This document shows, one piece after another, positions 4,552 to 22,081 of a stretch of 22,081 nt of DNA; positions within the stretch are counted from its first letter, which is position 1, and each line of letters opens with the position of its first letter. This DNA is from a virus: IMG/VR virus record IMGVR_UViG_3300005513_000216, positions 1 to 22,081 of that record. One strand, 5' to 3'. The notes under the pieces are model-generated. The model had not been told where the DNA came from. It worked only from the letters and a program-made list of their open reading frames with translations, and did not search any database. The position numbers and the translations under genes were made by a program.

Positions 4552-4695
4552 ATGTTGGAGATGGTGATGAGCGATGTTGGCGGAAACCTGCAGCAGGTGC
4601 GGATTGCGCTGGAGGGGATTACAGGCGTCGAGACCAAAGCGCCGGCGCCGGTCAGGCCTGAGAGCTATTTTCGTGATCGCGCGGGTTGGGCGTGA
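4552..4695 (+). CDS. 47-aa ORF at the head of the prophage operon
   Basis: A short ORF beginning MLEMVMSDVGGNLQQVRIAL and ending with RDRAGWA. The ribosome binding site GAGGGG (4539-4544) is 7 nt before the ATG and is among the best in the window. A second in-frame start (MSDVGG) lies 15 nt further on. The N-terminal half is a probable amphipathic helix. The ORF overlaps the beginning of the NusG-like gene in another frame, so translation of the two is probably coupled. No family is recognised. Its position suggests a small regulator or leader of the late operon, which is inference. Confidence 0.6.
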   Translation: MLEMVMSDVGGNLQQVRIALEGITGVETKAPAPVRPESYFRDRAGWA

Positions 4696-5242
4696 ACGCG
4701 AGACGGTCGATAGCTTGCGCCGGAACGGCGTGCGCTCGGAATGGCCGAGCTACGAAGTGCTCGAAGCCAAACGGGAACGCGGCACTAAGCGGCTTGTACG
4801 CCGGATGCGCCGGGTCGGCGTGCTGCCCGGATATGTGTTTGCGTCGCCGGCGATTGACGTAGATTTCGAAGATCTGTTGAGACGGGTAGTCGGTGCGATC
4901 GACATCGCGCGGAAGGACTCAGGCAAGCCGCTATTCATTGGCGAGGCTGACCTTGAGATCATCAGGCGGATCACGATCGGGCTTAATGCGCCTCGGCCGA
5001 ACAAGGTTGATCATGACTTCAAGCGTGGCGAGAAGGTCAGGTTCATCGACGATGTCGTGCGTATATGGCCGGCGGGTACCGTCGAGAAGCTTGCACAGGA
5101 TGGGCGAATCGGTGTTGAGGTCGAACTGATGGGGCGGAAGATGATCATCTGGGTTCTTCCGCATCAGATCGAGCAACGCAAGCATCGCCCCGCACGGGAT
5201 GCGGGATCCCAGCCCAAGGCGCTCGACGGCGGGAAAACCTGA
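4673..5242 (+). CDS. NusG-like transcription antitermination protein
   Basis: A 189-aa product from the GTG at 4673. The N-terminal part has the NGN-domain pattern: a beta strand (FVIARVGRERE), a helix, and the conserved PGYVFA loop at about 52-57, like the FPGYLFV of NusG/RfaH. A linker follows, and then a KOW domain (about residues 116-168) starting FKRGEKVRFIDD with the usual G-x-V pattern. Family role: the protein binds RNA polymerase and alters pausing or termination. In phages, specialised NusG relatives let transcription run through the structural genes. The frame is open to an ATG at 4574, but the extra 33 residues are an out-of-frame reading of the 47-aa ORF, so GTG 4673 (GAGAG 8 nt upstream) is preferred. 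It trims two residues from the first strand, so the start remains open. Two terminator-like hairpins lie directly downstream, before the terminase genes. Confidence 0.82.
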   Translation: MIARVGRERETVDSLRRNGVRSEWPSYEVLEAKRERGTKRLVRRMRRVGVLPGYVFASPAIDVDFEDLLRRVVGAIDIARKDSGKPLFIGEADLEIIRRITIGLNAPRPNKVDHDFKRGEKVRFIDDVVRIWPAGTVEKLAQDGRIGVEVELMGRKMIIWVLPHQIEQRKHRPARDAGSQPKALDGGKT

Positions 5243-5253
5243 GACACCCGCTT

Positions 5254-5278
5254 CACATGAGCCTTCCGTGCTCATGTG
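5254..5278. other. 9-bp inverted repeat after the NusG-like gene
   Basis: CACATGAGC (5254-5262) and GCTCATGTG (5270-5278) form a perfect 9-bp stem with a 7-nt loop, 12 nt after the stop codon. No T tract follows. It could be a protein or RNA-level recognition element for antitermination, or a weak terminator. Confidence 0.4.
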
Positions 5279-5302
5279 CGACGCTATGGAAACAACGCCC
5301 GC

Positions 5303-5334
5303 GCCGTCAGCCCAGCTGGCGGCGTTTTCGTTTT
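5303..5334 (+). terminator. Intrinsic terminator
   Basis: GCCGTCAG (5303-5310), loop CCCAG, CTGGCGGC (5316-5323), an 8-bp stem with one G-U pair, followed by GTTTTCGTTTT. Flanking AACGCC and GGCGTT can extend the pairing. This is a standard Rho-independent layout between the NusG-like gene and the HNH gene. Confidence 0.65.
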
Positions 5335-5402
5335 CATAGGTTGTGCGGTTGACCGTTCGCGTTAGCCGTTGCCCTCCTTGGGCGTTTCCTCCCTAGACTT
5401 GG

Positions 5403-5452
5403 GCCGCCCGCGTTCCGGTCGCTTCGACGAACCGAGCGCGGGCGGCTTTCTT
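5403..5452 (+). terminator. Second intrinsic terminator, just before the HNH gene
   Basis: GCCGCCCGCG (5403-5412) pairs perfectly with CGCGGGCGGC (5437-5446), followed by TTTCTT. A smaller nested CGGT/ACCG pair lies within the 24-nt loop. It ends 13 nt before the HNH start, so transcription of the terminase genes from upstream must pass it. Confidence 0.65.
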
Positions 5453-5465
5453 CGGCAGGTACCGC

Positions 5466-5819
5466 ATGGCGCTGCGCAGCATCGGCCGCAAGCTCGCGCC
5501 ATCATCACGGCGGAAGGTGCAGCCGGCAGCAAAAGTGGCCGAGAGTTTCTACCTGTCGCCCGAATGGCGGATGCTGTGTGAGGAGTTGAAGTGCGAGCGT
5601 TGGCCTCTGCTCTTTGCCAGGCAAGGTCATGCCTGCGAAGACCCAGAATGCAGGGCGCGCCACACGCGTGAGACGCGGATCTTCTTCGACCATGTGATCG
5701 AGCGGAACGATCGGCCCGATCTCGCGCTGGTGAAGTCTAACATCAAGGGCCGCTGCGGCTCGTCGCACGGCAAGAAAACGGCAGCCGAGCGCGCGCGCCG
5801 TCAGCACAAGCAGGGGTAG
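5466..5819 (+). CDS. Phage HNH endonuclease
   Basis: A 117-aa protein with the compact HNH (beta-beta-alpha metal) domain used by HK97-like packaging modules. CEDPEC (Cys57, Cys62) and Cys97 with His101 in RCGSSHG are the likely zinc and active-site residues. FDHVIE (Asp75-His76) carries the catalytic His, and Asn92 lies in NIKGRC. The N-terminus is basic. Family knowledge: in HK97-like phages an HNH protein next to the terminase assists cleavage at cos sites. The gene directly precedes the terminase small subunit, which supports this role. The ribosome binding site is modest (GGCAGG near 5455). Length is normal for the family. Confidence 0.9.
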   Translation: MALRSIGRKLAPSSRRKVQPAAKVAESFYLSPEWRMLCEELKCERWPLLFARQGHACEDPECRARHTRETRIFFDHVIERNDRPDLALVKSNIKGRCGSSHGKKTAAERARRQHKQG

Positions 5820-5936
5820 GGGGCGATAAATTCCCAGCGCCACTGCCTTCCCCAACCGCGTGTTCCCTCATACGCGAAAAAAATCTTGTGGCGGCGGAGG
5901 TTTGATTGCTCCGGCCGAATTCAATGGAAATCAAAC

Positions 5937-6578
5937 GTGTCCCAAACCGCGACCAAGACAGCGCGTGACGGTTCTCGACGCGGCGATGCGCGGCCCGGCG
6001 CGGGTCGGAAGAAGAAGGAACTGTCGGCGCCAACCTCCCTGTCCGAGCTCGAGCTGCGAGCGCTCCTCGCAGAGCCCGCGCCGGACGAGATCGACGGCAT
6101 CGCGCAGCGTCATACGGACCTGGCGATCGAAACGTTGGCGCGCCTGATGATCTATGGTGACAGCGAAGCGGCGAAGATCACGGCAGCGAAGGAGATTCTC
6201 GATCGCGGCTATGGCAAGCCTGCCGTGGAGATCGGCGGCGACGCTGCGATGCTGCCGTTCATGATGGCGCCCGACAGCCAGGCGACGCTGACCAAGACGG
6301 GTGATGTGCGAACGCAGGCGCGGAAGTATGCGGCCGTTGCCGTCGCCGTGCTCCGCAAGATCGCCCAGGACGGACAGAGCGAGACTGCGCGTGCCGGCGC
6401 GTCGAAAGCCTTGCTCGATCGCGGCCTCGGCACGGTCGGCAAGGCTCGCATGCCCGACGAGCAGCGTGATCGGCCGCTTGGCAAGAAGGAGGAGGCCGCG
6501 CGCGCCGCGGAGGCGGCCGCGACCGGTCGCTTCGCGACCCCGCCACCGCCGCGGACTGCCTCTGACTCGCTACACTGA
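5937..6578 (+). CDS. Phage terminase small subunit
   Basis: A 213-aa product from GTG 5937. The N-terminal segment has the signature of these subunits, a basic Gly/Arg stretch (GDARPGAGRKKK) followed by a helical body. The frame is open from a TTG at 5886, but the extra residues look non-coding, so GTG is preferred. Role: it recognises phage DNA and recruits the large subunit for packaging. The body contains two related helical repeats, IETLARLMIYGDSEAAKITA with ILDRGYGKP, and VAVLRKIAQDGQSETARAGA with LLDRGLGTV, suggesting an internal duplication. The C-terminus is Ala/Lys rich and its TGA overlaps the presumed start of the large subunit. The call rests on motif pattern and strict gene order (HNH, small, large terminase). 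Confidence 0.75.
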   Translation: MSQTATKTARDGSRRGDARPGAGRKKKELSAPTSLSELELRALLAEPAPDEIDGIAQRHTDLAIETLARLMIYGDSEAAKITAAKEILDRGYGKPAVEIGGDAAMLPFMMAPDSQATLTKTGDVRTQARKYAAVAVAVLRKIAQDGQSETARAGASKALLDRGLGTVGKARMPDEQRDRPLGKKEEAARAAEAAATGRFATPPPPRTASDSLH

Positions 6579-8437: not shown

Positions 8438-8621
8438 GGCGCTACGCGCGAGCGCGCGGGCCGTTCCGCATCTCGTAGTGGACGCTGCGGGCTTCGTTGG
8501 CGCAGGCAGCATCGCCTATGGTGCCTGGCTGATCTATGTGCCGGCTGGCTTTCTGGTCGGCGGCGCGCTGCTGATGGCGCTGTCGATCCTGTTCGGACGT
8601 CGCCTTGAGGCGCGCGAATGA
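8391..8621 (+). CDS. Small membrane protein between terminase and portal
   Basis: A 76-aa protein with two hydrophobic segments, about 28-48 (DAAGFVGAGSIAYGAWLIY) and 50-68 (PAGFLVGGALLMALSILFG), and a charged C-terminus. It overlaps the 3' end of the large terminase gene by 47 bp and its stop overlaps the portal start (GAATGAG), so it is translationally locked into the operon. An alternative ATG at 8415 gives a 68-aa product. Short membrane proteins in this position are common in related rhizobial prophages (recalled), but their function is not known to me. Confidence 0.75.
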   Translation: MRVAGRWFMASAGLGRALRASARAVPHLVVDAAGFVGAGSIAYGAWLIYVPAGFLVGGALLMALSILFGRRLEARE

Positions 8622-10345
8622 GCCTGTTCGGTTCGCTGGCCCGCGAGGTCAAGACCGCCAACGGTCTGACCTGGGGCGAGATCAACGATCTCTGGTCCGG
8701 CCTGTTCGGCGGCCATCAGTCACGCTCCGGCCCCGCGGTCAACTGGAAGACCGCACTTCAGACCACGACTTTTCTCGCCTGCGTGCGGCGCATCGCCGAG
8801 GCGGTCTCGACCGTCCCCACAAAGGTGTACCAGAAGCCACGCGGCGCCCAGCGCCAGGAGGCCTACGAACACCCGCTCTACGAGTTGCTCGGTGATGAGC
8901 CGAACGAGTGGCAGGATCCGCTGCAGTTCAAGGAGACGCTTGCGGTCCACTGCGCGGTCACCAACAATGCGTACGCCTTCAAGAACATCGTGCGGGGCAA
9001 GCTCGTCGAGCTGATCCCGATCATCCCCACCCACGTGCAGCCGAAATGGACGCCGGAGCGCACGCCATATTATCTGGTCACGGCCCCCGATGGTTCGCAG
9101 TCGACGTTGACGCCGAACGAGATCCTGCACATCCGCGGGCTTTCATGGGACGGGCTGACCGGCCTCGACGCGGTGAAGCTGTTGCAGGAGCCGCTCGGCC
9201 TCGCGCTCGCGACCGAGCAGACCCACGCGATGCTGCATGCTCATGGTGCGCGTCCGAGTGGCATCATCTCCGTCAATAAGGGCCTGGACGAGAAGGAACT
9301 CATCCGTCTCGCAGCCTGGGTCAAGAAGCACTACGGTGGCCTCGACAATGTCAGCCGCGTGATGATCCTGGACAATGATGCCAAGTTCACACCCTTCGAT
9401 ATGAAGGGCGTGGACATGCAGCATATCCAACTGCGCAACCTCGAGGCCGAACGCATCTGTCACGGCATGGGCGTGCTGCCGATCGTCATTGGCTATCCGG
9501 CCGAGATGGCGGCCCGGGCCGCGGCCGAGACGCTGATCGCGATGCACCTGGTGCATACCATCAGGCCCTGGCATCGCCGCTTCGAGGCCGCTTTCGACCG
9601 CCAGTGCCTGACCCGCGCTGAGCGGGCCCAAGGCTACTACACCAAGTTCATCGATGGCGAGTTCCTGCGCGCCACGGCCAAGGACCGCGCCGAATACAAC
9701 AAGGTCGCGCTTGGCGGCGCCGGCAATCCCGGCTGGGCCTCCATCAACGACGTCCGCGATTGGGACGACATGGATGAATATCCCGGCGGCAACCACATCT
9801 ACGCGCCGGTGAATGTCGGCCCGATTGGGCCGGACGGCGTTCCGATCATGCCAAACCAGGAACAAGGAGCCAGCGCGATGATCGCCGCAAAAAAATGCAG
9901 CGCGCGCCGGTACCTGTCGGATCCTTGCCCCCATGTGGCGGTGGATGCTGTCGTTCGGCTACGATCTCACCCTCTATGGTTGCAGAGTTGGAGTGAGCCG
10001 GCTAATGTTTGGCAAACATTGTGGGAGCAAACAGTGGCTCGCTCGATTTTTATAATCTTTGCCATTGGTCTCGCCTCCGGTTCTGTGCAGGCGCAACAAG
10101 CATCGTCCGAGCCAAGTCCTGCCGCGTCAACGCACTCGGCGACCACCGCTTCGTCTGGCCCCCCAAACCCTGGCCTCTGCGATCAACTCCGGAGTAAGGC
10201 GCGGGCCGGCCAGAAGTTGTCCGAAGAAGAGCAATCACAACTCGTCAGTCAATGTATCGGCGGGGGCGGAGGAGGTGGTGATGGCTGCGGGAAACATGGC
10301 CTTATGAAAGGCTATGTAACAGTTGCTCCCGAAGATTGCTATTAG
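8618..10345 (+). CDS. HK97-family portal protein, fused in frame to cargo at its 3' end
   Basis: Residues 1 to about 420 form a complete HK97-type portal, the dodecameric ring at the head vertex through which DNA passes. Recognisable segments are the N-terminal TTTFLACVRRIAEAVSTVPT, the conserved ILHIRGLSWDGLTGLDAVK, a central PSGIISV region, and the C-terminal GNPGWASINDVRDWDDMDEY and APVNVGPIGPDG. The HK97 portal is about 424 aa, so the body is full length. From about 9880 on, the sequence stops looking like portal (Cys/Arg-rich, no family resemblance). It then runs in frame into an independent secreted-protein gene with its own start at 10034. The 575-aa frame is therefore a chimera created where cargo was inserted at the 3' end of the portal gene. 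The native stop has been lost. Confidence 0.9.
   Translation: MSLFGSLAREVKTANGLTWGEINDLWSGLFGGHQSRSGPAVNWKTALQTTTFLACVRRIAEAVSTVPTKVYQKPRGAQRQEAYEHPLYELLGDEPNEWQDPLQFKETLAVHCAVTNNAYAFKNIVRGKLVELIPIIPTHVQPKWTPERTPYYLVTAPDGSQSTLTPNEILHIRGLSWDGLTGLDAVKLLQEPLGLALATEQTHAMLHAHGARPSGIISVNKGLDEKELIRLAAWVKKHYGGLDNVSRVMILDNDAKFTPFDMKGVDMQHIQLRNLEAERICHGMGVLPIVIGYPAEMAARAAAETLIAMHLVHTIRPWHRRFEAAFDRQCLTRAERAQGYYTKFIDGEFLRATAKDRAEYNKVALGGAGNPGWASINDVRDWDDMDEYPGGNHIYAPVNVGPIGPDGVPIMPNQEQGASAMIAAKKCSARRYLSDPCPHVAVDAVVRLRSHPLWLQSWSEPANVWQTLWEQTVARSIFIIFAIGLASGSVQAQQASSEPSPAASTHSATTASSGPPNPGLCDQLRSKARAGQKLSEEEQSQLVSQCIGGGGGGGDGCGKHGLMKGYVTVAPEDCY
10004..10020. promoter_or_regulatory. Operator-like palindrome before the secreted protein gene
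   Basis: AATGTTT (10004-10010), GGC, AAACATT (10014-10020) is a perfect 17-bp dyad ending 2 nt before the ribosome binding site GGGAG (10023-10027) of the gene at 10034. The position suits a repressor site or an RNA hairpin controlling translation. No regulator family is recognised. Confidence 0.4.
10034..10345 (+). CDS. Small secreted Gly-rich, four-cysteine protein (cargo)
   Basis: A 103-aa product from GTG 10034 with an excellent ribosome binding site (GGGAG, 6 nt spacing). This is why it is treated as its own gene although its frame is continuous with the portal. Residues 1-20 are a signal peptide (ARSIFIIFAIGLASGSVQA, cleavage before QQ). A Ser/Thr/Ala/Pro-rich linker (21-48) follows, then a short helix, a run of seven glycines (76-82) and four cysteines (49, 74, 85, 102) that could form two disulfides. 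It resembles no phage structural protein. It begins an AT-richer island with the next gene. Function unknown; the exported, disulfide-type layout suggests a cell-envelope or secreted role. Confidence 0.6.
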   Translation: MARSIFIIFAIGLASGSVQAQQASSEPSPAASTHSATTASSGPPNPGLCDQLRSKARAGQKLSEEEQSQLVSQCIGGGGGGGDGCGKHGLMKGYVTVAPEDCY

Positions 10346-10381: not shown

Positions 10382-10924
10382 ATGATTAGTTGGCAAGATA
10401 TCGTAAGTGTTCTCATTTTTGCTGGGTTTCTTCTCCTCTTTTCTACAGCAGTCTTCTTGGTTAGTTATCTCGCTTTCCGGCTTCTGTCTAAGTTGAACAG
10501 AGTTCGGGGTGCGGGGCACGTGCTCAGTGGACTATGGGGAGGCTTTCCTCTCGGTTTTACGGGCATGGCAGCTGGTTTCCTCACTGGTTCGAGCCGAGTG
10601 CCTGCAGTTGCCGCTGTTGTTCCGGCCATTCTCACGTTCGTGGGTTTGACTGTCGTTTATTTGATGGGGAAAGGGAAACTACGAGCATTGCTTGCTGGCA
10701 TGATCGTTTTGCTTTTTTCGATCAATCTCTTGTTGGGAACGCTGCTGGGCACTGTGTCGCGTGACCGGCAAGAACAACTCGAGACAAGCGTAGCGGTATC
10801 AGAAGCGCGAGCCGAAAAGGAGCTTGCCATCCGCAAGTACAGGAGCGCTTTGGGTTTGCCAGCGGTCCCGCCAAAGGCAGGTACACCAGGAGCAGACCCA
10901 GAAAAGCCTTCGCCGTTAAATTAG
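10382..10924 (+). CDS. Four-helix integral membrane protein (cargo)
   Basis: A 180-aa protein with four hydrophobic segments, about 8-33, 48-69, 73-95 and 100-124. A charged helical tail (about 126-155, possibly coiled coil) and a Pro/Ala-rich C-terminus follow. No family is recognised. Base composition is clearly more AT-rich than the flanking phage genes, as for the secreted gene 36 bp upstream, so the two probably arrived together. The start ATG overlaps the stop of a minimal upstream reading frame (MLEMSDVK, 10358-10384) as ATGA, which may couple their translation. It sits between portal and protease, where phages carry no membrane protein by default, so it is called cargo. An exclusion, immunity or export role is possible but unsupported. 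Confidence 0.65.
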   Translation: MISWQDIVSVLIFAGFLLLFSTAVFLVSYLAFRLLSKLNRVRGAGHVLSGLWGGFPLGFTGMAAGFLTGSSRVPAVAAVVPAILTFVGLTVVYLMGKGKLRALLAGMIVLLFSINLLLGTLLGTVSRDRQEQLETSVAVSEARAEKELAIRKYRSALGLPAVPPKAGTPGADPEKPSPLN

Positions 10925-11894: not shown

Positions 11895-13088
11895 TCAAGC
11901 GGGCTTGGTGTTGCGGAGCGCTTGGTCGCAGGCATCCCGATAGAGCTTGTCATTGATGCTTGAAAAGCGCTGCATTTTTGGAGGGACGTTCTTCGGTGCG
12001 TATTGTTGCCATTTCGACCGTATCCAAATCTGCTTTCCATATAGACAGTCAAAAATTGGATGTAATTTCTCACCTACAGTAGGAAGTTGGCCTGGCCTCG
12101 GGTCGCAACCCACCTCGCGGCTTGCTTTGGACAGCAGCTTTCTTTTCCGGTCGGACCGTTCGTTCGATATGGCGGCTGACACGTTACTCCCCAGCTGATC
12201 CTTGCATCGATCGATATATCCGTCATCCCAGATGGTTTCTTTGCAATAGTATCTGGTTCGCTCGATCATGGTGAGGAGTGAAACATCGCTTAGGAATGCC
12301 CTATCGGAATTGCCGCCCACGTCTGCGTGAACACCCGGCATCCAGATCTGTTCGATCGCCTTGGGTTGGCTTCGCTGCGCTTCCCCCAATAGTACAGGGC
12401 GGAAAGAAGGGCTGCGGTCGTCATCGATTGATAAGATGCTCACGACGGAATCGACAACGTCGTCTAGCGGCATCGGTTGCTGGAGGCGGACGGTTGAGAA
12501 GCGAGTTCGCGTATCCCAATCGTTCCCTGGAACTGGATCGAATAGGCCCAAGAACCTTATTTTTGGTCGTCTTACCTTTCGCTCGATGTGAGCGGCCCAG
12601 ATACCCCTCATCTCTGCTTCGGTAAATGCCTTGCGACCGTGGTGCCCCAGGTAGTAGTCCCAGACAGCATGCAAGTTGTCCAAGTCGTCAGGCCAAAGCA
12701 GTCCAACGCGAGAGACTATATCTACAAGTGCAAGTGCTGCAGCAGCACCGCGCGAGTATCCGAAGATTTGGATTTCGTCGTCCTCGATGAAGTTGGAGGC
12801 AAGATTGACGTACGCCTCCCTTACGATTTCGTCCATGCCGCGGGCAGTGACGGCAGACATCCAATCGCTCCGTGTGCCGACACCAGGTATGTAAAAGACG
12901 ATCTGATTGCCCGCAAAGTGCAACGCTAAGTTCAAGCGGAAGATATTGGTGGCGTCCGACCACCGGCCGTAGGCCGCCGAATTGGCCGTCCCGTCGAAAA
13001 ATAACTGAATTCGCTTTAGTGGACTTGATGTCACAGCTGGTGACATCGCTTCTTCGTTCTGTCCAGATTCGTTCACACCAGCAGTCAT
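11895..13088 (-). CDS. DUF2235 / Tle1-like alpha/beta hydrolase (cargo)
   Basis: A 397-aa protein of the DUF2235 family, which includes type VI secretion phospholipase effectors (Tle1). Landmarks are QLFFDGTANS near the start (Asp32-Gly33-Thr34), nucleophile Ser112 in the lipase motif G-Y-S-R-G (110-114), Asp184 in FLGLFDPVPG, and MPGVHADVGGN with His254 and the family's H-x-D-V-G-G. The catalytic triad is thus likely Ser112-Asp184-His254. There is no signal peptide or membrane segment. The start is firm: GGGAGG lies 6 nt upstream and a promoter-like pair sits 25-55 bp upstream. It is transcribed against the phage operon and occupies the place of the deleted capsid genes. Phospholipase activity is family knowledge, not shown here. 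No VgrG, PAAR or immunity gene is adjacent. An effector, an anti-phage factor or a housekeeping lipase are all possible. Confidence 0.85.
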   Translation of the reverse strand: MTAGVNESGQNEEAMSPAVTSSPLKRIQLFFDGTANSAAYGRWSDATNIFRLNLALHFAGNQIVFYIPGVGTRSDWMSAVTARGMDEIVREAYVNLASNFIEDDEIQIFGYSRGAAAALALVDIVSRVGLLWPDDLDNLHAVWDYYLGHHGRKAFTEAEMRGIWAAHIERKVRRPKIRFLGLFDPVPGNDWDTRTRFSTVRLQQPMPLDDVVDSVVSILSIDDDRSPSFRPVLLGEAQRSQPKAIEQIWMPGVHADVGGNSDRAFLSDVSLLTMIERTRYYCKETIWDDGYIDRCKDQLGSNVSAAISNERSDRKRKLLSKASREVGCDPRPGQLPTVGEKLHPIFDCLYGKQIWIRSKWQQYAPKNVPPKMQRFSSINDKLYRDACDQALRNTKPA

Positions 13089-14680: not shown

Positions 14681-15021
14681 CTGACGCCCTGGTTTGGCAA
14701 CTGGCCTGGGCCGACAGTTTTGATGCCATCGTCGCCGCGGCGGAGAGCGCCGGAGATCCGCTCGATCAACTGCCCTGCGTGGCCTCCCGCGTCGATCCGT
14801 CGCCTCATCTCCTGTTCGAATGGCAGGCCTTCGCCGAGCTACGGACGGACCGGCCGGTTGGGCTCGACATCGGCGCCATTCCGTGGGCCGCCATCAATGC
14901 CTTTGCGTTGCGTTACGACTTCGTCGCTGAGGAGTTCGAGCGGTTCGCGCGATTGATCCGCGCGCTCGATATCGCCGAACGCATCTACATCAGGGATCAC
15001 CGGCCGAATGCCCAGCCTTGA
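14677..15021 (+). CDS. Tail assembly chaperone T extension (made as G-T frameshift fusion)
   Basis: The -1 frame reads LTDALVWQLAWADSFDAIVA onward for 114 aa with good coding character, including LPCVASRVDPSPHLLFEWQA and a long C-terminal helix. No normal start codon exists near its beginning; the first candidate is GTG 14779, which would lose a third of the domain. The frameshift from the upstream gene would give a 251-aa G-T fusion, as in lambda gpGT. Its role is to link chaperone-bound tape measure to tail tube subunits. Its stop overlaps the tape measure start by 14 bp. Confidence 0.82.
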   Translation: MTDALVWQLAWADSFDAIVAAAESAGDPLDQLPCVASRVDPSPHLLFEWQAFAELRTDRPVGLDIGAIPWAAINAFALRYDFVAEEFERFARLIRALDIAERIYIRDHRPNAQP

Positions 15022-17545
15022 GACCATCCGAACGGTTCGCGTCAGAGGCGAAGCCGACGGCGTCGACGCGACGACCGCGGCACTCAACCGGCTGACGGAT
15101 TCGATCCGGGCGGCAAATGACAATCTCACCCGCAGCGATGCGGCCGCGCGCCAGGCCGACGACGGCTGGAGCCTGACCGGAGAGAGCGCGGTCAAGATGG
15201 CGAACCATCTGCGCCAGGCTGCCGAGGCCGCCTATGCGTTCTCACCGGCCTTTCGCGGGGTCGTCAATGAGATGGCGGCGCCCGCGCTGGCGGCTGCCGG
15301 CACGGCGATGACGGCGGTCGCTGCCGGCACCGGCCTGGTCACGCTGGCCAATACCGCGGAGAGCGCCAGCCCGCGTCTCGTCGGCATTGCCGCGGGCATG
15401 CGGACGGCAGGCGCTGCGATGGAGGCGTTCTCGCCAACGGTTGCCACCGCTGGCTCGACCCTGCTCGGGTTCGTCGGCACCGTCGTGTCGCGGTTTCTAC
15501 CGATCGTGGGACAGGCCCTGCTGCTCTATGACGCGATCAAGCTGGTCACGGAGGCCTGGGATCTCGGCAACCAGAAGCTCGCCGAATATGTCGAGATTTC
15601 CGAGAAGGCTGCGAGGGCTGGCGTCTCGGCCGAGTTTTTTCAGCGGATCGAGCAGGCCGCAAAAAACGCGCGATCGCCGATCGATGATATTACCGCCTCG
15701 CTGAAGAGCCTGAACAATGCCACCGCGCCTCAGCTGGGCGGAACGAGCGGGCAGCAGCGCCTCGACGAGCTCGTCCAGGCGGGCAACTTCAAGGGCAACA
15801 CCGGCGTCAGCCAGATCGCCAATGCCGATGGCACCGAGGACAAGCTGCGCGCGATCGCCAGTTTGATCGATCAGGCTATGGACAAGGGTCAACGGCTGGC
15901 TGCGCTCGATATCGCCCGCTCGTTCCTCGGCTCGGATGTTGCGGACAATCTGGCGAAGGATTCCGATTATCTCGACCGGATGATCGCCTCAGCCGATGCG
16001 ATCCGCGCCAAGGACCTGGTCTCGCAGGCCTCCGTCGACAATGCCGTCGCGCTGCAGGCGCGGCTCGATGCGGCCGAGCAGATCCTGTCGCAGCGCTGGC
16101 ATCCGGTCCAGGACGCGCTGGCACAGCTCGGCATCAAGATGAAGGAGACCTGGGTAGATATCGTCGAGGCGATCGCGACCGGCGTCGATGTGGTCTTCAA
16201 GCTCGGCCAGAAGATTGCCGATGCCCTGGCGCCGCTGATGGACTACATCAGGTCGGCCGAAAGCCTCCTCGCTAAGGCCGCACAGTTCGTCGGCGCCGGT
16301 GCAGGTCCTGTGGGCGCCGCGATCAGCGCGGGCGGTGCGATCGCCGGCTCGGCGCTGGCGCCGGCGCAGCAGCCGAGCGCGCTCGACGAGGCCCGCGCGC
16401 GACTTGGCACCCAGCTCTACAATCGGAACAATATCGCCGACAGCCTGAGCGCGACGGTGAATGCTCAAAGCCGGGTCCGCCAGGATACGTCAGTCAACCC
16501 GAAGACTGTCGACGACACCAAGGATGCCTACGACCGCGCGACGGAATCGCTGCAGAAGTACATCGCCACGACCAATGCCGCGGCCGATACGGTTGGCAAG
16601 AGCGTGGCCGAGCAGGAGAAGGCCAAGGCGACGGCGCAGCTGCTGGCGGCCGCCGAGAAGGACGGCACCGCGGACACGGCCGAGATGCGGGCTGAGATCG
16701 ACAAGCTCGCCGATCGGGCCGCGGCAGCCGCGCAGGCACTGGAGAAGGCCAAGATCGCGGCCGATATCAAGTTCAACCGCGACACCTCGCTGCTGTCGTC
16801 CGAGGACGTGCAGATCGCGCAGCAGCTGAAGGGGCTCTATCCCGACGTCGCGACCGCGCTTGGGAGCGTCGAGGCGCAGGGCATCCGCGTCAACAACGCG
16901 ATGAAGGAGCTGTCGTCCTCGATCGAGAGCAATCTGACCTCCGGCCTGACCGACCTGGTGTCCGGCTCCAAGTCGGCAGGCCAGGCCTTCTCCGACATGT
17001 CGAACACCATCATCAAGGCGATCGAGCAGATGATCATCAAGATCACGATCGTCGAGCCGCTGATGAGGGCCTTGCAGTCGTCGATTGGCGGCGGCTTCAA
17101 CCTGTCGGGGCTCGGCTTCAATCCGATCGCCGGCGCCGCCGGCGTCGCCTCGGCGCATGGCAACGTGTTTTACAGTGGCAACGTGGTGCCGTTTGCGAAT
17201 GGCGGCATCCCGGACATCGTGAACAGTCCGACGATCGCGCCAATGGCACTGTTCGGGGAGGCGGGCGAGGAAGCCATCATGCCGCTGCAGCGCGGCTCCG
17301 ACGGCAAGCTCGGCGTCGCGTCGAGCGGCGGCGGTGGCCGTGCCGGCAATGTGACGGTTAACGTCTTCAACGCGCCGGCCGGCGTCGAGAGCCAGCAGAC
17401 CACGACCGACGCGCAAGGTAATTCCCGCGTCGACATCACGCTCCGGAAGGCGGTCGATGGCGCCGTCGGCGATTCCCTCGCTGGTGGCACGGGCCGGCGA
17501 GTCTTGCGCGACAAGTACAACGTCCGGCAATTCATGGGGGCCTGA
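15008..17545 (+). CDS. Tail tape measure protein
   Basis: An 845-aa, Ala-rich, mostly helical protein. Hydrophobic segments occur at about 85-125, 145-170 and 435-460, and a charged coiled-coil stretch at about 560-625 (EKAKATAQLLAAAEKDGTAD and neighbours). The C-terminus carries the lambda-type tail motif, VVPFANGGIPDIVNSP followed by MALFGEAGEEAIMPLQRG, found in many siphophage tape measures. It sets tail length and helps DNA delivery. At roughly 0.15 nm per residue it predicts a tail near 125 nm, a non-contractile siphophage. It starts inside the T frame (ATG 15008) and its stop is 2 nt before the next start. The gene is intact and in frame throughout. Confidence 0.93.
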   Translation: MPSLETIRTVRVRGEADGVDATTAALNRLTDSIRAANDNLTRSDAAARQADDGWSLTGESAVKMANHLRQAAEAAYAFSPAFRGVVNEMAAPALAAAGTAMTAVAAGTGLVTLANTAESASPRLVGIAAGMRTAGAAMEAFSPTVATAGSTLLGFVGTVVSRFLPIVGQALLLYDAIKLVTEAWDLGNQKLAEYVEISEKAARAGVSAEFFQRIEQAAKNARSPIDDITASLKSLNNATAPQLGGTSGQQRLDELVQAGNFKGNTGVSQIANADGTEDKLRAIASLIDQAMDKGQRLAALDIARSFLGSDVADNLAKDSDYLDRMIASADAIRAKDLVSQASVDNAVALQARLDAAEQILSQRWHPVQDALAQLGIKMKETWVDIVEAIATGVDVVFKLGQKIADALAPLMDYIRSAESLLAKAAQFVGAGAGPVGAAISAGGAIAGSALAPAQQPSALDEARARLGTQLYNRNNIADSLSATVNAQSRVRQDTSVNPKTVDDTKDAYDRATESLQKYIATTNAAADTVGKSVAEQEKAKATAQLLAAAEKDGTADTAEMRAEIDKLADRAAAAAQALEKAKIAADIKFNRDTSLLSSEDVQIAQQLKGLYPDVATALGSVEAQGIRVNNAMKELSSSIESNLTSGLTDLVSGSKSAGQAFSDMSNTIIKAIEQMIIKITIVEPLMRALQSSIGGGFNLSGLGFNPIAGAAGVASAHGNVFYSGNVVPFANGGIPDIVNSPTIAPMALFGEAGEEAIMPLQRGSDGKLGVASSGGGGRAGNVTVNVFNAPAGVESQQTTTDAQGNSRVDITLRKAVDGAVGDSLAGGTGRRVLRDKYNVRQFMGA

Positions 17546-17547
17546 TC

Positions 17548-17922
17548 GTGGCGCTGCCTTCTTGGCCGATCGCCTCCTATATGCCCGACCCAGATAGCTT
17601 CCAGCCGATCCAGCGTATGCTGGATCCCCTGGAGACGGCCATGGAAGGCGGCAACACGCGCATGCGGCCACGGCCAGGCGACAATGTCGGGACGATCCAG
17701 CAGACCGTCTGGATGTCTTTCGCGGAGTACGACACGTTCACCGATTGGGTGAAAAACACCCTCAATAACGGCACCGCACGTTTCGCGGTGAATGTCTGGC
17801 TCGGCACCGCTTACATCAGCAAAACCTGCCAGTTCATCAAGCCCGGCACGATGCTGACCAGCGCCTACATCTCAGTTAACAAGGTTGCAGTGCCGATGAA
17901 GCTACGCGTTTACGGAATGTGA
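17548..17922 (+). CDS. Small tail protein downstream of the tape measure (gene A)
   Basis: A 124-aa protein beginning MALPSWPIASYMPDPDSFQP. It has an aromatic and beta-rich body with EYDTFTDWVKNTLNNGTARF and a characteristic ending, QFIKPGTMLTSAYISVNKVA then VPMKLRVYGM. It starts with GTG 2 nt after the tape measure stop, so it is part of the tail operon. The position corresponds to minor tail proteins at the tail tip (lambda gpM region), and the role is inferred from that. Diverged copies of its C-terminal end recur at 18756-18851 and 21671-21727, next to cargo, so this is the one complete copy in the window. Confidence 0.8.
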   Translation: MALPSWPIASYMPDPDSFQPIQRMLDPLETAMEGGNTRMRPRPGDNVGTIQQTVWMSFAEYDTFTDWVKNTLNNGTARFAVNVWLGTAYISKTCQFIKPGTMLTSAYISVNKVAVPMKLRVYGM

Positions 17923-17925
17923 TCG

Positions 17926-17994
17926 ATGCCGACCCATTCCGAGCAGGTATCTGATCCGTTTCTTTCCTCAGATGGCTGTCAGATCAAAACCTGA
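17926..17994 (+). pseudogene. Stub of a DUF1833-like tail gene start (gene B), cut by cargo
   Basis: Three bases after gene A, ATG CCG ACC CAT TCC GAG encodes MPTHSEQ. This closely matches the MPTHNEA start of the complete DUF1833 gene at 21142. After about seven codons the resemblance ends and the frame stops at 17994, inside the 3' end of the convergent DUF4329 gene. The simplest reading is that an original gene B began here and was interrupted or replaced when the DUF4329 cargo arrived. Confidence 0.5.
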
Positions 17995-18465
17995 CACAAC
18001 CATCCGCTGTTTTTCTTTTTGCCCGCCACGTTTGCCTTCTAAAACCGTAACTTCGCCATGTATGTCTATAACATACATATCGATTGGTCCCGGTGATACT
18101 TGCTGCCAAGCCAACTCAAAGGCCCGTCTCCCGGGCACATCCCGATCTTGCGAAAAGCGAGGCGGCTTGTGAAGAGTACTAAGGTCACCTTCCTCGTCAT
18201 ACGTATCCTGGTTGAAGGGATGCGTGTGCATAGTGGCAATAAGCTTTGCTTCTCGGGGTAGTCTGGGAGGCGCAAGCGTCCCACCGCGAGGTTCGGAAGT
18301 CCTCTCCAATGGGGTGGTATAATAGAATTTAGCTTTTTGACCGCTACCGATCTTAAATATGTATCCACCGTATTCATATTGCTCATGAATCGACTTCGGC
18401 AGTATATGAAGTAGCGCATCAACAGCAGCTTCATCGGCGGTACGGAAAGGGAGACTCTGGCTCAT
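17968..18465 (-). CDS. Free-standing DUF4329 (JAB/MPN-like) protein (cargo)
   Basis: 165 aa from the ATG at 18465, which has a GAGGAG ribosome binding site about 7 nt upstream. The frame is open to an ATG at 18528, but without such a site. The domain shows Glu31 in EYGGYIF, a central IATMHTHPF with the H-T-H pair (80-82), and RFSQDRD with Ser105 and Asp107/109. This arrangement resembles the E..HxH..S..D metal site of JAB/JAMM peptidases and matches DUF4329. Family knowledge: DUF4329 is often the C-terminal domain of Rhs or polymorphic toxins. Here it is a stand-alone soluble protein with no signal peptide. It lies between gene A and a partial second copy of gene A, opposite to the phage operon. 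Toxin, immunity partner or peptidase are all possible; none is shown by the sequence. Confidence 0.72.
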   Translation of the reverse strand: MSQSLPFRTADEAAVDALLHILPKSIHEQYEYGGYIFKIGSGQKAKFYYTTPLERTSEPRGGTLAPPRLPREAKLIATMHTHPFNQDTYDEEGDLSTLHKPPRFSQDRDVPGRRAFELAWQQVSPGPIDMYVIDIHGEVTVLEGKRGGQKEKQRMVVSGFDLTAI

Positions 18466-18619
18466 GGGGTGCTCCTCAGCACATCGGGCTTGAGGTGTTC
18501 TCGTCGTGCCTGACAGCGCGGCGTTCATAAGAAATCGTGAGCTATTGAAAAGTGCGAGCGCGGGTCAAACTAAGACGAGTTTTCGGCTGCCGCTTGGTTG
18601 TGCGCGACAAAGGAGCGGC

Positions 18620-18661
18620 TTGACCCGTCAGACGTATTTCGTATCGACCGTTCGGAGGAGG
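18620..18661 (+). promoter_or_regulatory. Promoter-like pair and strong ribosome binding site
   Basis: TTGACC (18620-18625), 16-nt spacer, TATCGA (18642-18647), then GGAGGAGG (18654-18661) 4 nt before the ATG at 18666. The -10 match is only fair (4/6). The ribosome binding site is the strongest in the window, yet it now drives only a 61-aa chimeric frame. Confidence 0.4.
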
Positions 18662-18665
18662 TTGG

Positions 18666-18851
18666 ATGGAATTGGGTGAGTTGTCGCTAATTCGATGCGA
18701 GGACGCAGGCCGGACTCCGCCGGCTCGATGTGGGTCTGATCCGGCGTTTCACTCTAAGTTCGTCCAGCCCGGCACAACGCTGACCTCCGACTATATTCCC
18801 GGTGGGGAGCAGGTCGCGGTCAACATGACTTTGCGGGTTTACGACGTATAA
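18666..18851 (+). pseudogene. Chimeric frame: unknown start joined to a second copy of the gene A 3' end
   Basis: Codons 1-30 (MELGELSLIRCEDAGRTPPA onward) show no resemblance to any phage gene. Codons 31-61, KFVQPGTTLTSDYIPGGEQV then AVNMTLRVYDV, are a clear diverged copy of the end of gene A (QFIKPGTMLTSAYI, VPMKLRVYGM). The joined frame has its own strong ribosome binding site and may be expressed. It most likely marks an acquisition scar, with a leader from cargo DNA read into leftover tail-gene sequence. Confidence 0.55.
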
Positions 18852-18927
18852 CTCTGGATCGGGTCGATGTCTGCTTTGGGGGGTGAAACGGAAATGCTTT
18901 AAACCTCAGACACATGACCGCTAGTGA

Positions 18928-19143
18928 CCGATTGTGTTGAAAAAGTCCTCTCTGGCGTTGGCACCAATTTTCCAAGAGCCGCTGATGCGCTTGAGGTCTT
19001 CAGACGCGGGGGATCGCTTCGACCTGAGCGTTCAGTCGCCTTCTCACACGCTCTAAGAGGGTACGCTAGCCGAAGTCGGCGATCTACTCGCTTTGTCGCC
19101 AATCTTACTGACGCAATATTTTCGACTTTTTCAACACAATCGG
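18928..19143. mobile_element. 216-bp MITE-like element with 20-bp perfect terminal inverted repeats
   Basis: CCGATTGTGTTGAAAAAGTC (18928-18947) is repeated in perfect inverted orientation at 19124-19143. Ends of the GTTGAAAAAGTC type are familiar from rhizobial insertion sequences (recalled). Only 176 bp separate the ends, with no transposase, so this is a non-autonomous miniature element or an internally deleted insertion sequence. Short open frames cross it but have no support. No target-site duplication is evident: the flanks read GTGA and CCCA. It sits inside the cargo region between the second gene A fragment and the 72-aa gene. Confidence 0.65.
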
Positions 19144-19341
19144 CCCAAAAAGGACATTGTGCGTCGCACCATCCGCCATTGCGGAAGTATTATCACTCGG
19201 TTCGACCAGCCCCTGGACTTGTATAGTAACCTTTCGTGAACACGCTTATTGTCCCTGCATCACCGGCCATGGCTCTGTCCGTAGGCGTCGGTGGCTAAGA
19301 GACCAATTGTGCTCCCGCCTGCAAAACAGGGGAGTACGGAT

Positions 19342-19560
19342 ATGTGGTCACCACTCCATATCTTCCGACCGAACAGAGAAGACGCTGAGCAGATGCGAGC
19401 GGTTCGCGACGGCTTGGCGAAAAGTATGCGCTTGTTGAGAAGCGCCCAGGCTGCAGACACATTCCTCGGCCGCAAGACGCAAGAGCCGTTTCGCCAAGGG
19501 GACGAAGCGATCCGCGCCGATCGCTGGCTCAATTCCAAGGAATTGCGTCCACCGAAGTAG
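19342..19560 (+). CDS. 72-aa small helical protein (cargo)
   Basis: It begins MWSPLHIFRPNREDAEQMRA with an AGGGGAG ribosome binding site 7 nt upstream. The frame is open from a GTG at 19291, but the ATG is clearly better. A long helix with LRSAQAADTFLGRKTQEPF follows, then a basic C-terminus (LNSKELRPPK). The LRSAQAADTFLGRKT pattern recalls short Bradyrhizobium hypothetical proteins (recalled, not verified). A hairpin overlaps its stop codon, so it is probably a single-gene unit. Function unknown. Confidence 0.65.
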   Translation: MWSPLHIFRPNREDAEQMRAVRDGLAKSMRLLRSAQAADTFLGRKTQEPFRQGDEAIRADRWLNSKELRPPK

Positions 19561-19580
19561 GCCGCTCAATGACGGCCTAC
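19557..19580 (+). terminator. Hairpin at the end of the 72-aa gene
   Basis: GTAGGCCG (19557-19564) and CGGCCTAC (19573-19580) form a perfect 8-bp stem with an 8-nt loop that overlaps the stop codon. There is no T tract, so its strength as a terminator is uncertain. The 180 bp after it hold no gene, only a 12-bp palindrome TTTCCGCGGAAA (19680-19691). Confidence 0.45.
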
Positions 19581-19761
19581 GACGTCGCCTACTGGCCATC
19601 GCATCGATATCGGCGCGTCTCTGTTCGCGCGCGGCTAGACGCTAGCAAATGCTTCAATTTGGCACTGTGGATATGCGGTTTTCCGCGGAAAGAAGGCCAT
19701 TTATCAATGTTCCGTTGATTTCGATCAATGGTCCCGTTTGGGCTTCGCTGACCGTTGGTCC

Positions 19762-19902
19762 ATGAAACTTCTAGAACAACGCCTGGAAGAGCAAACTGAA
19801 AGCCCCGAAACGTCGCGTTTGGAGGAGGCGCGCCGGATCGTCGAGGAGTACGTGCAGGGCCTGCGGGAAATTCTCAAGCAGCTCCGTCGTCGCCTACACT
19901 GA
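19762..19902 (+). CDS. 46-aa charged helical protein (cargo)
   Basis: A short ORF, MKLLEQRLEEQTESPETSRL onward, ending EILKQLRRRLH. Almost the whole product is a highly charged amphipathic helix with a break at Ser-Pro, and the base composition and codons look genuinely coding. It is too short for default gene lists. No recognised family; similar short helical proteins occur in Bradyrhizobium (recalled). The stop codon lies within the second copy of a 17-bp direct repeat shared with the terminase junction. A dimeric DNA- or RNA-associated role is conceivable from the basic C-terminus but is speculation. Confidence 0.6.
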   Translation: MKLLEQRLEEQTESPETSRLEEARRIVEEYVQGLREILKQLRRRLH

Positions 19903-19910
19903 CGCTGCCG
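19894..19910 (+). repeat. 17-bp direct repeat, copy 2
   Basis: Identical to 6570-6586 and in the same orientation, 13.3 kb apart, spanning the final codons and stop of the 46-aa gene. The surrounding bases differ on both sides. See the paired entry at 6570. Confidence 0.45.
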
Positions 19911-20045
19911 GCCGTTGACTTCCAGCGTTTCCCGTTGCCTTGTCCTGAGCGATTTTTAGAAAATGGACCAGCGGCGCATCCGAGGAGTTGAACCTGCAAT
20001 AAGCAAAGCCGAAGCAGACAGGACTCACAACACCAGGAGAGTCAG

Positions 20046-20984
20046 ATGCAATCGAGAACGCTCGTCCTGAAATACGTTGTCCTCGTATCTGTAGCAGCCA
20101 TGTTCTTCGTCGCGAGTGCTTCATTCGCGCAGCAGAAGGGCGCATCCTCTTCTGAAACGCAAACAAGAGAGGTGCAAATCAATGGCTTTACACTGCATTA
20201 CATTGAACTCGGGCAAGGAACTCCAGTTGTGTTGGTGCACGGCACACTGGAGGATTACCGCACGTGGGATGGACAGCTTGAGGCCTTGTCGAATGGATAT
20301 CGACTAATCTCGTACAGTCGTCGGTATCACTATCCTAATGAATGGATCAAAGATTCATCAGATTTTTCTGTCACGATACATGCGACAGACCTGGCCGCCT
20401 TCATCAAGGCACTTAATCTAGCCCCGGTTCATCTCATTGGTCATTCATATGGGGCGTTTATTGCGTTCCTGGTCGCACGAGATCACCCGGAGCTCATTCG
20501 AAGTCTGACGCTGGCCGAACCGCCCATAATGCCATTGCTAAAAAATACACCTGAAGGAGATGCTGTTCTTGGCGCCGTTATTACGGAGTCAATCGCTACG
20601 ACCGAAGCATTCAAGCAGGGGTATGACGAAGAGGGGGTGCGTCGATTTTTGAACGGCGTGTTGGGCGAGGGTTCCTACGAGAAACTCCCACCTCCCGTTC
20701 TGAAGCGCGTCATGGACAATGTTCAAGAGCTAAAAGGCGAGACCTTACACAGTCAAGACCTCTTCCCACCCATCACATGCGAGGACGTGCAGAAGGTGAA
20801 AGCGCCAACATTGGTCATCGACGGAGAACTTAGTCCTAAGATGTTCCGTCTCATCAATGACATGCTGAAGCACTGCTTGCCGAGCGTAGAACGTGTGATG
20901 ATCCCGGCGGCATCTCATGCGTTACAGCTTGAGAACCCCCAAGCCTTCAATGACAAGGTGCTTGCATTCGTTGCAAAGCACTGA
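20046..20984 (+). CDS. Exported alpha/beta hydrolase (cargo)
   Basis: A 312-aa protein with a signal peptide (residues 1-29: basic start, VVLVSVAAMFFVASA core, cleavage near FAQ), so it acts in the periplasm or is secreted. The alpha/beta-hydrolase fold is complete: oxyanion-hole HG at 65-66 in VLVHGTLEDY, nucleophile Ser134 in GHSYG (132-136), acid Asp259 in LVIDGELSP and His291 in ASHALQLENP. A YSRRYHYPNEW segment near 90-100 and a lid-like insertion (about 160-240) follow the usual plan. The AGGAGA ribosome binding site is 5 nt before the ATG. Substrate cannot be told; esterase, lipase, haloperoxidase-like or lactonase activities share this architecture. It lies inside the disrupted tail module with only weak promoter-like sequence upstream (TTGACT at 19915) and is not a phage structural or lysis gene. 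Confidence 0.88.
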   Translation: MQSRTLVLKYVVLVSVAAMFFVASASFAQQKGASSSETQTREVQINGFTLHYIELGQGTPVVLVHGTLEDYRTWDGQLEALSNGYRLISYSRRYHYPNEWIKDSSDFSVTIHATDLAAFIKALNLAPVHLIGHSYGAFIAFLVARDHPELIRSLTLAEPPIMPLLKNTPEGDAVLGAVITESIATTEAFKQGYDEEGVRRFLNGVLGEGSYEKLPPPVLKRVMDNVQELKGETLHSQDLFPPITCEDVQKVKAPTLVIDGELSPKMFRLINDMLKHCLPSVERVMIPAASHALQLENPQAFNDKVLAFVAKH

Positions 20985-21141
20985 ACTGCTGCGGTGCACG
21001 AGTCTGCTGTTGGGCCCAAGGCGGACCAATAGGCCGATGAGCCCGCTGGTCGGCTCGCGGTCCTAAAGCGGACGTCGTCCCGCTGGGTAGGTCAGCCTTA
21101 GCTTCCACCGAGAATCTGGCCCCGGCTTGGGCAGGATAGTC

Positions 21142-21666
21142 ATGCCAACCCACAATGAAGCGCTCCTCGAGGCGTATGCCTCCTGTCCGCCGAGCGCGCG
21201 CATCTACAACACGCTCGAGGTCTGGCATCCGTCGTTCGCGCAGGCCGCGCGGGTGGTCGCCAATGTCGGCGACGACATGACGCTCGGGATCGAGGCTGGC
21301 GCGCCCCGCGACGGCGGCAGCATGGCGACGTTCATCGCTTGCCCGTTCACGGCCGATTATCCGGAGCAGCGCGAGGGGCAGCCGCCGTCCTGCAAGATCT
21401 CGATCGACAACGTCGCGCGGGATCTGGTGCCGCAGATCCGCGCTGCGCTCGGCGTGCGGGCCTATATCGACGTGCTCTACCGGGAATATCTCGGCAGCGA
21501 TCTGACCGAGCCCGCCTACGGCCCGGTGCAATTTGAGCTGACCAGCGTGCAAATGACGGGCACCACGCTGACCGGCACGGTGGTGGTGACGAACCTACAG
21601 AACAAGCGCTTTCCGCGCATCACCAAGAACTACACCTATCAGCAGTTTCCGAGCTTGTTGCCATGA
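21142..21666 (+). CDS. DUF1833-family phage tail protein (gene B, complete copy)
   Basis: 174 aa from ATG 21142 (MPTHNEALLEAYASCPPSAR), preceded by GCAGGA. The body has LEVWHPSF, a beta-rich VVANVGDDMTLGIEAG segment, FIACPFTADYPEQ and the family's signature KISIDNVARDLVPQIRAA. It ends KNYTYQQFPSLLP. DUF1833 proteins are encoded between the tape measure and the NlpC/P60 tail-tip peptidase in many siphophages, and a minor tail-tip role similar to lambda gpL is inferred. It should follow gene A directly, but here it is 3.2 kb downstream because cargo separates them, while a seven-codon stub of a similar start remains at 17926. The tail-tip peptidase and host-specificity genes normally following are not seen before the window ends. 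Confidence 0.82.
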   Translation: MPTHNEALLEAYASCPPSARIYNTLEVWHPSFAQAARVVANVGDDMTLGIEAGAPRDGGSMATFIACPFTADYPEQREGQPPSCKISIDNVARDLVPQIRAALGVRAYIDVLYREYLGSDLTEPAYGPVQFELTSVQMTGTTLTGTVVVTNLQNKRFPRITKNYTYQQFPSLLP

Positions 21667-21670
21667 GCAA

Positions 21671-21727
21671 TGGATCGGCCCCGACAAGGTCGTCGCCACT
21701 ATGACGTTGCGCGTCTATGGGGTCTAG
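21671..21727 (+). pseudogene. Third copy of the gene A 3' end
   Basis: Four bases after gene B the sequence reads WIGPDKVVATMTLRVYGV then TAG, matching the last residues of gene A (VAVPMKLRVYGM) and of the second copy (VAVNMTLRVYDV). Only 18 codons remain and there is no start. It is out of order, because gene A precedes gene B in intact relatives. It is best explained as residue of another A-B unit or of recombination with a related phage. Confidence 0.55.
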
Positions 21728-21770: not shown

Positions 21771-21902
21771 TCAGCGAAGGGATTGCGCTATCCAAGCCCC
21801 GCGCATTTCCGGCATGTTTTTGCCGCCGATGTTCGCCACTATCGCGGCGTTGAATAGCAGGAAGGCAAGGCCAAGTCCGAAAACCAAAGACATCTGCTTC
21901 AT
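21771..21902 (-). CDS. 43-aa single-pass membrane peptide (cargo)
   Basis: A short minus-strand ORF, MKQMSLVFGLGLAFLLFNAA followed by IVANIGGKNMPEMRGAWIAQ and SLR. One transmembrane helix spans about residues 5-24, followed by a soluble tail. The ribosome binding site GGAGGGG (21910-21916 on plus coordinates) is 7 nt before the ATG, very strong. Not in default gene lists because of its length. It points against the phage operon, like several other cargo genes here. It could be a small envelope protein or a type I toxin-like peptide, though the tail is not typical of the latter. No antisense RNA partner was identified. Confidence 0.6.
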   Translation of the reverse strand: MKQMSLVFGLGLAFLLFNAAIVANIGGKNMPEMRGAWIAQSLR

Positions 21903-22081
21903 GGAAGGTCCCCTCCATGTTAGCACTTTAAGTTGCCATAGGAGGCGTGGTTCCTATCAGTCTATTGCCGTCGGTTCTGGGCGCCGATGAACGTGTCAGT
22001 GTCGTCTAGCGACCGGTGCACCCTGGAACAAACGGTCTGTCCCTCTATCGAGGCGCTTGTGCGAACGACCCGGGTCGGTCA
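21903..22081. other. Right-edge stretch without a recognised gene
   Basis: It contains the upstream region of the 43-aa gene, including a TTAGCACTTTAAGTTGCC AT-rich patch. No reading frame with a ribosome binding site was recognised. The expected tail-tip peptidase gene is absent. Confidence 0.4.

Follow-up and report, generated by a model that had tools for sequence, protein, structure and literature searches.

The question raised by this locus is why the end of one tail gene should occur three times, and the start of its neighbour twice, around genes of non-phage character. The window, meaning the whole 22,081-base IMG/VR viral record analysed here, carries a tape measure gene (15008..17545, plus strand; PHROG tape-measure families, best E 1.2e-13) followed by gene A (17548..17922, plus), which is complete, encodes 124 amino acids from a GTG start, and is phrog_384-like. 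Four bp past the stop codon of A, at the usual spacing, lie the initial 7 codons of gene B (MPTHSEQ; 17926..17946, plus), here called relic 1. Next are the first cargo gene, a DUF4329 protein (17968..18528, minus; Pfam E 3e-8), and relic 2, the final 31 codons of a diverged gene A (18756..18851, plus). A partial boundary site of cassette type begins 6 bp past the stop codon of relic 2 (18857..18929, plus; 20.3 bits, shuffled maximum 8.9), and an unstranded MITE-like element spans 18926..19145, with 18-bp perfect terminal inverted repeats at 18928-18945 and 19126-19143. The second cargo is a mobile single-gene unit (19981..21017, plus) whose gene, at 20046-20984, encodes an exported alpha/beta hydrolase. 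A shortened boundary site (TTGGGCCC...CCTAAAGCGGACGTC; 21018..21090, plus), so degenerate that it stays below 12 bits with the site profile, was recognised there by direct reading and comparison of hydrolase 3' ends. A complete gene B (21142..21666, plus), encoding a 174-aa DUF1833 minor tail protein (E 5e-25), is followed by relic 3, the final 18 codons of a third gene A (21669..21727, plus), and the record ends 354 bases further on. Within this last stretch, a 51-aa ORF with the look of a small membrane protein (21771..21926, minus) is a possible third cargo, seen as an ORF alone.

Genes A and B are real tail-operon genes, B being a member of the well-known minor tail family phrog_396. The original prediction of a full A followed by a 7-codon start of B was confirmed: the start matches a relative at 18 of 21 bp, a level reached only by relic 1 and the real B start among 44,120 positions on both strands. 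For the end of A, a DNA profile of its final 93 bp was built from relatives. Relic 2 scored 50.7 bits and relic 3 scored 28.2 bits with this profile, far above the highest value of 8.1 in 1.27 Mb of dinucleotide-shuffled sequence. Therefore, the third A end, whose 18 codons had raised the worry of a chance match, is not due to chance, and the end of A is indeed present three times with a full B in between. The DUF4329 gene, the MITE-like repeat pair and the exported hydrolase also lie where they had been placed. The copies of A are diverged, as had been claimed; the first and second are identical at 64 of 99 positions (65%), and over the final 63 bp the third agrees with the first at 34 of 62 positions and with the second at 36 of 63. 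When A ends were compared, the three of the window did not group together.

The order tape measure-A-B-C-D was mapped for gaps in 47 A-B loci from viral contigs and Bradyrhizobium genomes, some of which are the same or sister prophages, so that the counts are non-independent. The gap between A and B is at most 8 bp in 39 of the 47 loci and 35-60 bp in three, and cargo of 1.3-4.6 kb is found there in five (the window, L009, L012, L021 and L045). Extra DNA of 0.18-2.3 kb occurs at the B-C junction in 17 loci, and of 0.25-1.8 kb at the C-D junction in 9. The junction of the tape measure gene and A never carries cargo, its gap being 0-12 bp with the single exception of 38 bp at a contig-end locus. 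Extra DNA at B-C or A-B was also found in 6 of 16 remoter relatives of the wider family, and prophages of sequenced isolates with otherwise continuous tail operons carry cargo at the same junctions. In this phage family, the A-B, B-C and C-D junctions are thus docks that tolerate the insertion of non-phage genes ("morons"). The view of the A-B junction as a repeated acquisition point is supported, since other phages hold quite different cargo there, and the B-C and C-D junctions act alike. An arrangement that would have spoken against it, intact phages in which several A genes are separated by full B genes, occurred in none of the 47 loci. A tblastn search of gene A against deposited phages gave no match, and a search in plasmids gave no useful match. 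In L021, an in-frame stop (3325-3333) is present at about codon 105 of A, just ahead of the 4.6-kb dock, and the final codons of A are still recognisable beyond it.

The cargo differs nearly every time, and much of it is encoded on the opposite strand from the operon. It includes a Crp-type regulator (L012), two response regulators (L040), CobW with the nickel/cobalt transporter NicO (L021), a cation efflux protein (L045), a periplasmic binding protein (L036), a DUF6894 protein (L057), and many small unknown proteins. No homologue of the DUF4329 cargo was found in 259 Bradyrhizobium genomes or in viral contigs. The cargo separates genes that are direct neighbours in related phages, and its composition is unlike that of its surroundings: its GC content was below that of gene B for 9 of the 10 docks compared, and within the window it is 0.48-0.59 for the cargo and mostly 0.62-0.72 for the tape measure gene. 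The opposite orientation of many cargo genes implies promoters of their own, and these genes would be expressed to the benefit of the host. A sigma-70 scan of the window cargo detected no promoter, and terminator-like sites were at the level of shuffled sequence. The docks lie in series within a tail operon. Their cargo genes are morons in the usual sense, with the stacked relics as the unusual feature.

Relics of this kind are also found in other loci. In L045, four B starts follow gene A: the first two run for about 10-20 codons, the third belongs to a B cut at codon 145 and the fourth to another B, and these last two copies are 91% identical. In L007, B and its side cargo are present twice (86% identical) with a C start in between, and in L049 a B end with 56 codons of C is followed by cargo and then by B, side cargo and C. 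In both L007 and L049, where this is readable, no 3' remainder of an interrupted gene occurs downstream; the relics are therefore not simple insertions into a gene. In L075 (9764-9880), the first 39 codons of B are fused in frame to the apparent start of D and C is gone, which looks like the deletion counterpart of the duplicated relics. The expectation of precise shared endpoints was borne out in part. The relics themselves end at varying points (7-145 codons), but in pairs of filled and empty docks the sequences part within the final ~5 codons of B and rejoin within the opening ~5-9 codons of C, and the 3' end of the hydrolase unit is the same in several unrelated contexts.

Several IMG genome identifiers supply two such prophages each, often with different docks, so filled and empty docks reside together. 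L018 and L031, from one genome identifier, share 96.6% identity until the final codons of B are reached; 1.4 kb then stands at the B-C junction in one and none in the other, and similarity picks up again at about codon 5 of C. Because the two differ from the last codons of B to about codon 5 of C, the exchange carried the very ends of both flanking genes, and gene ends moving along in this manner would explain why the relics are gene ends. We consider it likely that related prophages, carrying different cargo at the same docks, recombined by illegitimate, offset crossovers, and that the relics are the traces of these events. The left part of one phage, cut slightly late, would be joined to the right part of another, cut slightly early; the overlap would stay behind as a relic, so that a gene end is duplicated and nothing is lost. 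The reverse offset would delete genes, and such an outcome was seen only in a broken prophage (L075). Crossover as the mechanism, together with its order in time, is what we infer from these joins. The same reading, taken as a whole and at the same strength, has the cargo drawn from the gene pools of the host, at least once as a mobile one-gene unit, and the window belonging to a temperate siphophage whose host would be Bradyrhizobium or a close relative. It agrees with one of two routes originally proposed, recombination with related phages carrying other cargo. The relatives of A and B in the window are discordant, L009 showing 60% identity in A but 88% in B. However, the identities of A and B go together only loosely even where no cargo is present (correlation 0.49 versus 0.29), so this discordance is not specific to docks and is only suggestive of exchange.

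Part of the pattern could be due to decay, as the prophage in the window looks defective and probably is so. A Tle1-like phospholipase gene (11895-13085, minus) occupies the place expected for capsid and connector genes, with the prohead protease on one side and the C-terminal half of a tail tube gene on the other. A tblastn search of the window with the capsid and connector genes of relatives gave zero matches, so the remark on a missing capsid concerns gene order alone. Other features were observed in the left part of the window. The Pfam portal match of the ORF at 8618-10345 stops at residue 383 and is followed by about 180 residues that look unlike portal proteins, and a membrane-protein-like ORF (10382-10924) after it possibly marks another dock. 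The left end of the record is taken up by a large sulfatase-like (arylsulfatase) gene (1123-3606), which is intact and probably host flank or cargo. The suhB/mmgR small RNA matches at 5364-5460 (Rfam, 61.6 bits against a gathering score of 41).

The hydrolase is the sole cargo gene traced in detail onto chromosomes. DNA copies of its unit, 86-90% identical, are present in ten Bradyrhizobium genomes at ten different chromosomal sites. In all pairwise comparisons, the match around the gene extends over just ~1.0-1.35 kb and the surroundings differ, although a few pairs share other short stretches within the 14 kb, the longest being 2 kb (L114/L118). This limited similarity amid differing surroundings indicates that the gene moves as a one-gene unit. 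In the unrelated phage L102, the unit lies ahead of the terminase genes with the same 3' end at TTGGCCC. Directly upstream of the unit in L112, where other copies have the boundary site, a group II intron with RNA domains and a reverse transcriptase ORF was found (4619-6474), the only Rfam feature beside a hydrolase copy. A second array cassette (L116, 7833-8801) was uninformative, its protein family being present in nearly all genomes of the genus.

One-gene units of this type have as their boundary a variable ~106-bp site with the consensus TGGCCC...ATGTCCGCTTTTGGGGGTAGACCGGAAGT...GACGCGATTGACCCAAAGCGGAC. Counts of the exact motif TCCGCTTT were uninformative; a site model found at least 21-84 copies per genome in four genomes, with 150 candidates scored in each. 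The repeat core can be translated as MSAFGGKADI, a string that occurs in many "hypothetical proteins" of the genus. The sites lie in accessory islands: within one genome, 280 kb of two such islands contain 56 of them, and 280 kb of segments scattered elsewhere contain 2. Neighbouring sites are co-oriented in 60 of 64 pairs (P 4e-14) at a median spacing of 1.4 kb, and all sites of at least 15 bits within ~7 kb of chromosomal hydrolase copies point along with the hydrolase. Arrays in which directly oriented sites stand between single genes occur in L111-L134 and L135-L140, and at G240:C1 1.48-1.67 Mb and 1.97-2.03 Mb, G097:C1 821-830 kb and G165:C68 94-109 kb. Single genes between directly oriented sites of ~60-150 bp are an integron feature that these arrays share. 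However, none of 75 sites contains the attC core boxes RYYYAAC...GTTRRRY on either strand, and single-site DNA folds no better than shuffles (z -0.15 to -1.55), with no consensus structure; for these reasons the arrays are not called an integron. Tentatively, they may represent an undescribed gene-cassette system of Bradyrhizobium, in which one-gene units with a ~106-bp non-attC site form directly oriented arrays in accessory islands. A recombinase or rolling-circle process would move the units between chromosomal sites and the tail-operon docks of phages, the phages acting as a shuttle, and an IS91-like rolling-circle process could be the source of such arrays.

This site could also have been the means of entry into the docks, with a recombinase inserting cargo there as in integrons and fragments of A and B being carried along. 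The phage loci hold 13 sites in 36 kb of docks and 3 in 701 kb elsewhere, an approximately 84-fold difference when sister loci are counted separately; the distinct cargo families behind the dock count are those of the window, L007, L009, L018/L030 and L036. Two co-oriented sites bracket a gene in L009, sites occur at both cargo borders in L036, and the mobile hydrolase unit keeps a fixed 3' end. Against these points, empty docks contain no site but just 2-8 bp, many cargoes are without a recognisable site, and the relics vary in length. The attC boxes are missing, and the integron integrase model (TIGR02249) gave nothing over the cut-off in 259 Bradyrhizobium genomes, a search lacking a positive control as the control genomes gave no match either. 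Site-specific insertion appears unlikely as the way in which cargo and fragments came into the docks, and because several docks carry no recognisable site, the cassette link covers part of the cargo and not all of it.

It had alternatively been proposed that an A-B unit was duplicated in tandem within one phage and later broken by insertions, and the order A-B'-A'-B-A'' does resemble a broken tandem array. This does not fit the relatives, which have one A and one B, or the divergence of the copies: tandem copies should be closely similar, but the first two A ends are just 65% identical, the three ends do not cluster, and the B copies of L007 share side cargo yet are 14% diverged. We regard tandem duplication as highly improbable. 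Only slightly more credence is given to plain decay of a defective prophage or an assembly chimera, with no special dock at all. The reverse-strand Tle1-like gene in place of the expected capsid and connector genes and the half tail tube are consistent with such a history, and all stacked relics are in metagenome contigs, with joins read from the contigs alone, while the isolate prophages examined have clean single insertions. Yet those isolate prophages, with continuous tail operons, carry cargo at the same junctions, and the joins are not at shared k-mers. Moreover, L007 and L008, which come from two IMG/VR records, do not differ across 8.5 kb, although their source samples may be related to each other. 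Offset crossover between prophages with different cargo is thus the preferred reading of the relics.

The stacked docks provide a readable record of moron stacking; as each relic would stand for a single recombination between related prophages, the donors and the sequence of events could be worked out. Phage cargo is also tied here to one-gene units that move around Bradyrhizobium chromosomes. Like the morons of lambdoid phages and the Pseudomonas Mu-like phages, for which the definition and regions of genomic plasticity have been described (PMC4378225), the cargo consists of non-phage genes between otherwise adjacent genes, differs in composition, and varies at each place. Unlike in those phages, the docks lie in a row within the tail operon, diverged gene-end relics are stacked in them, and the cargo includes chromosomally mobile single-gene units. 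The chromosomal arrays resemble integron cassettes and CALINs (IntegronFinder 2.0, PMC9024848) in their single genes, their variable, directly oriented sites of ~100 bp, and their occurrence without a nearby integrase, and integron cassettes, as the cargo units here, occur in phages too (PMC9892861). They differ in having sites without attC core boxes in a genus where the integrase search, run without a positive control, found none over the cut-off. Integrons are reported to be extremely rare in Alphaproteobacteria; if the units do form a non-attC cassette system, an integron-like route of gene sharing would exist in a group where integrons are reportedly near absent. The Br-REP1 and Br-REP2 elements are likewise repetitive and intergenic in Bradyrhizobium, but their printed consensus is short and, compared by eye with the site alignment, different from the ~106-bp site, and the part of that report covered here describes no arrays around mobile genes (PMC5082802). 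Finally, as in grounded prophages that act as gene-transfer hotspots (PMC6379469), defective prophages gather host genes; in this family, however, the same junctions are used also in the continuous tail operons of isolate prophages.
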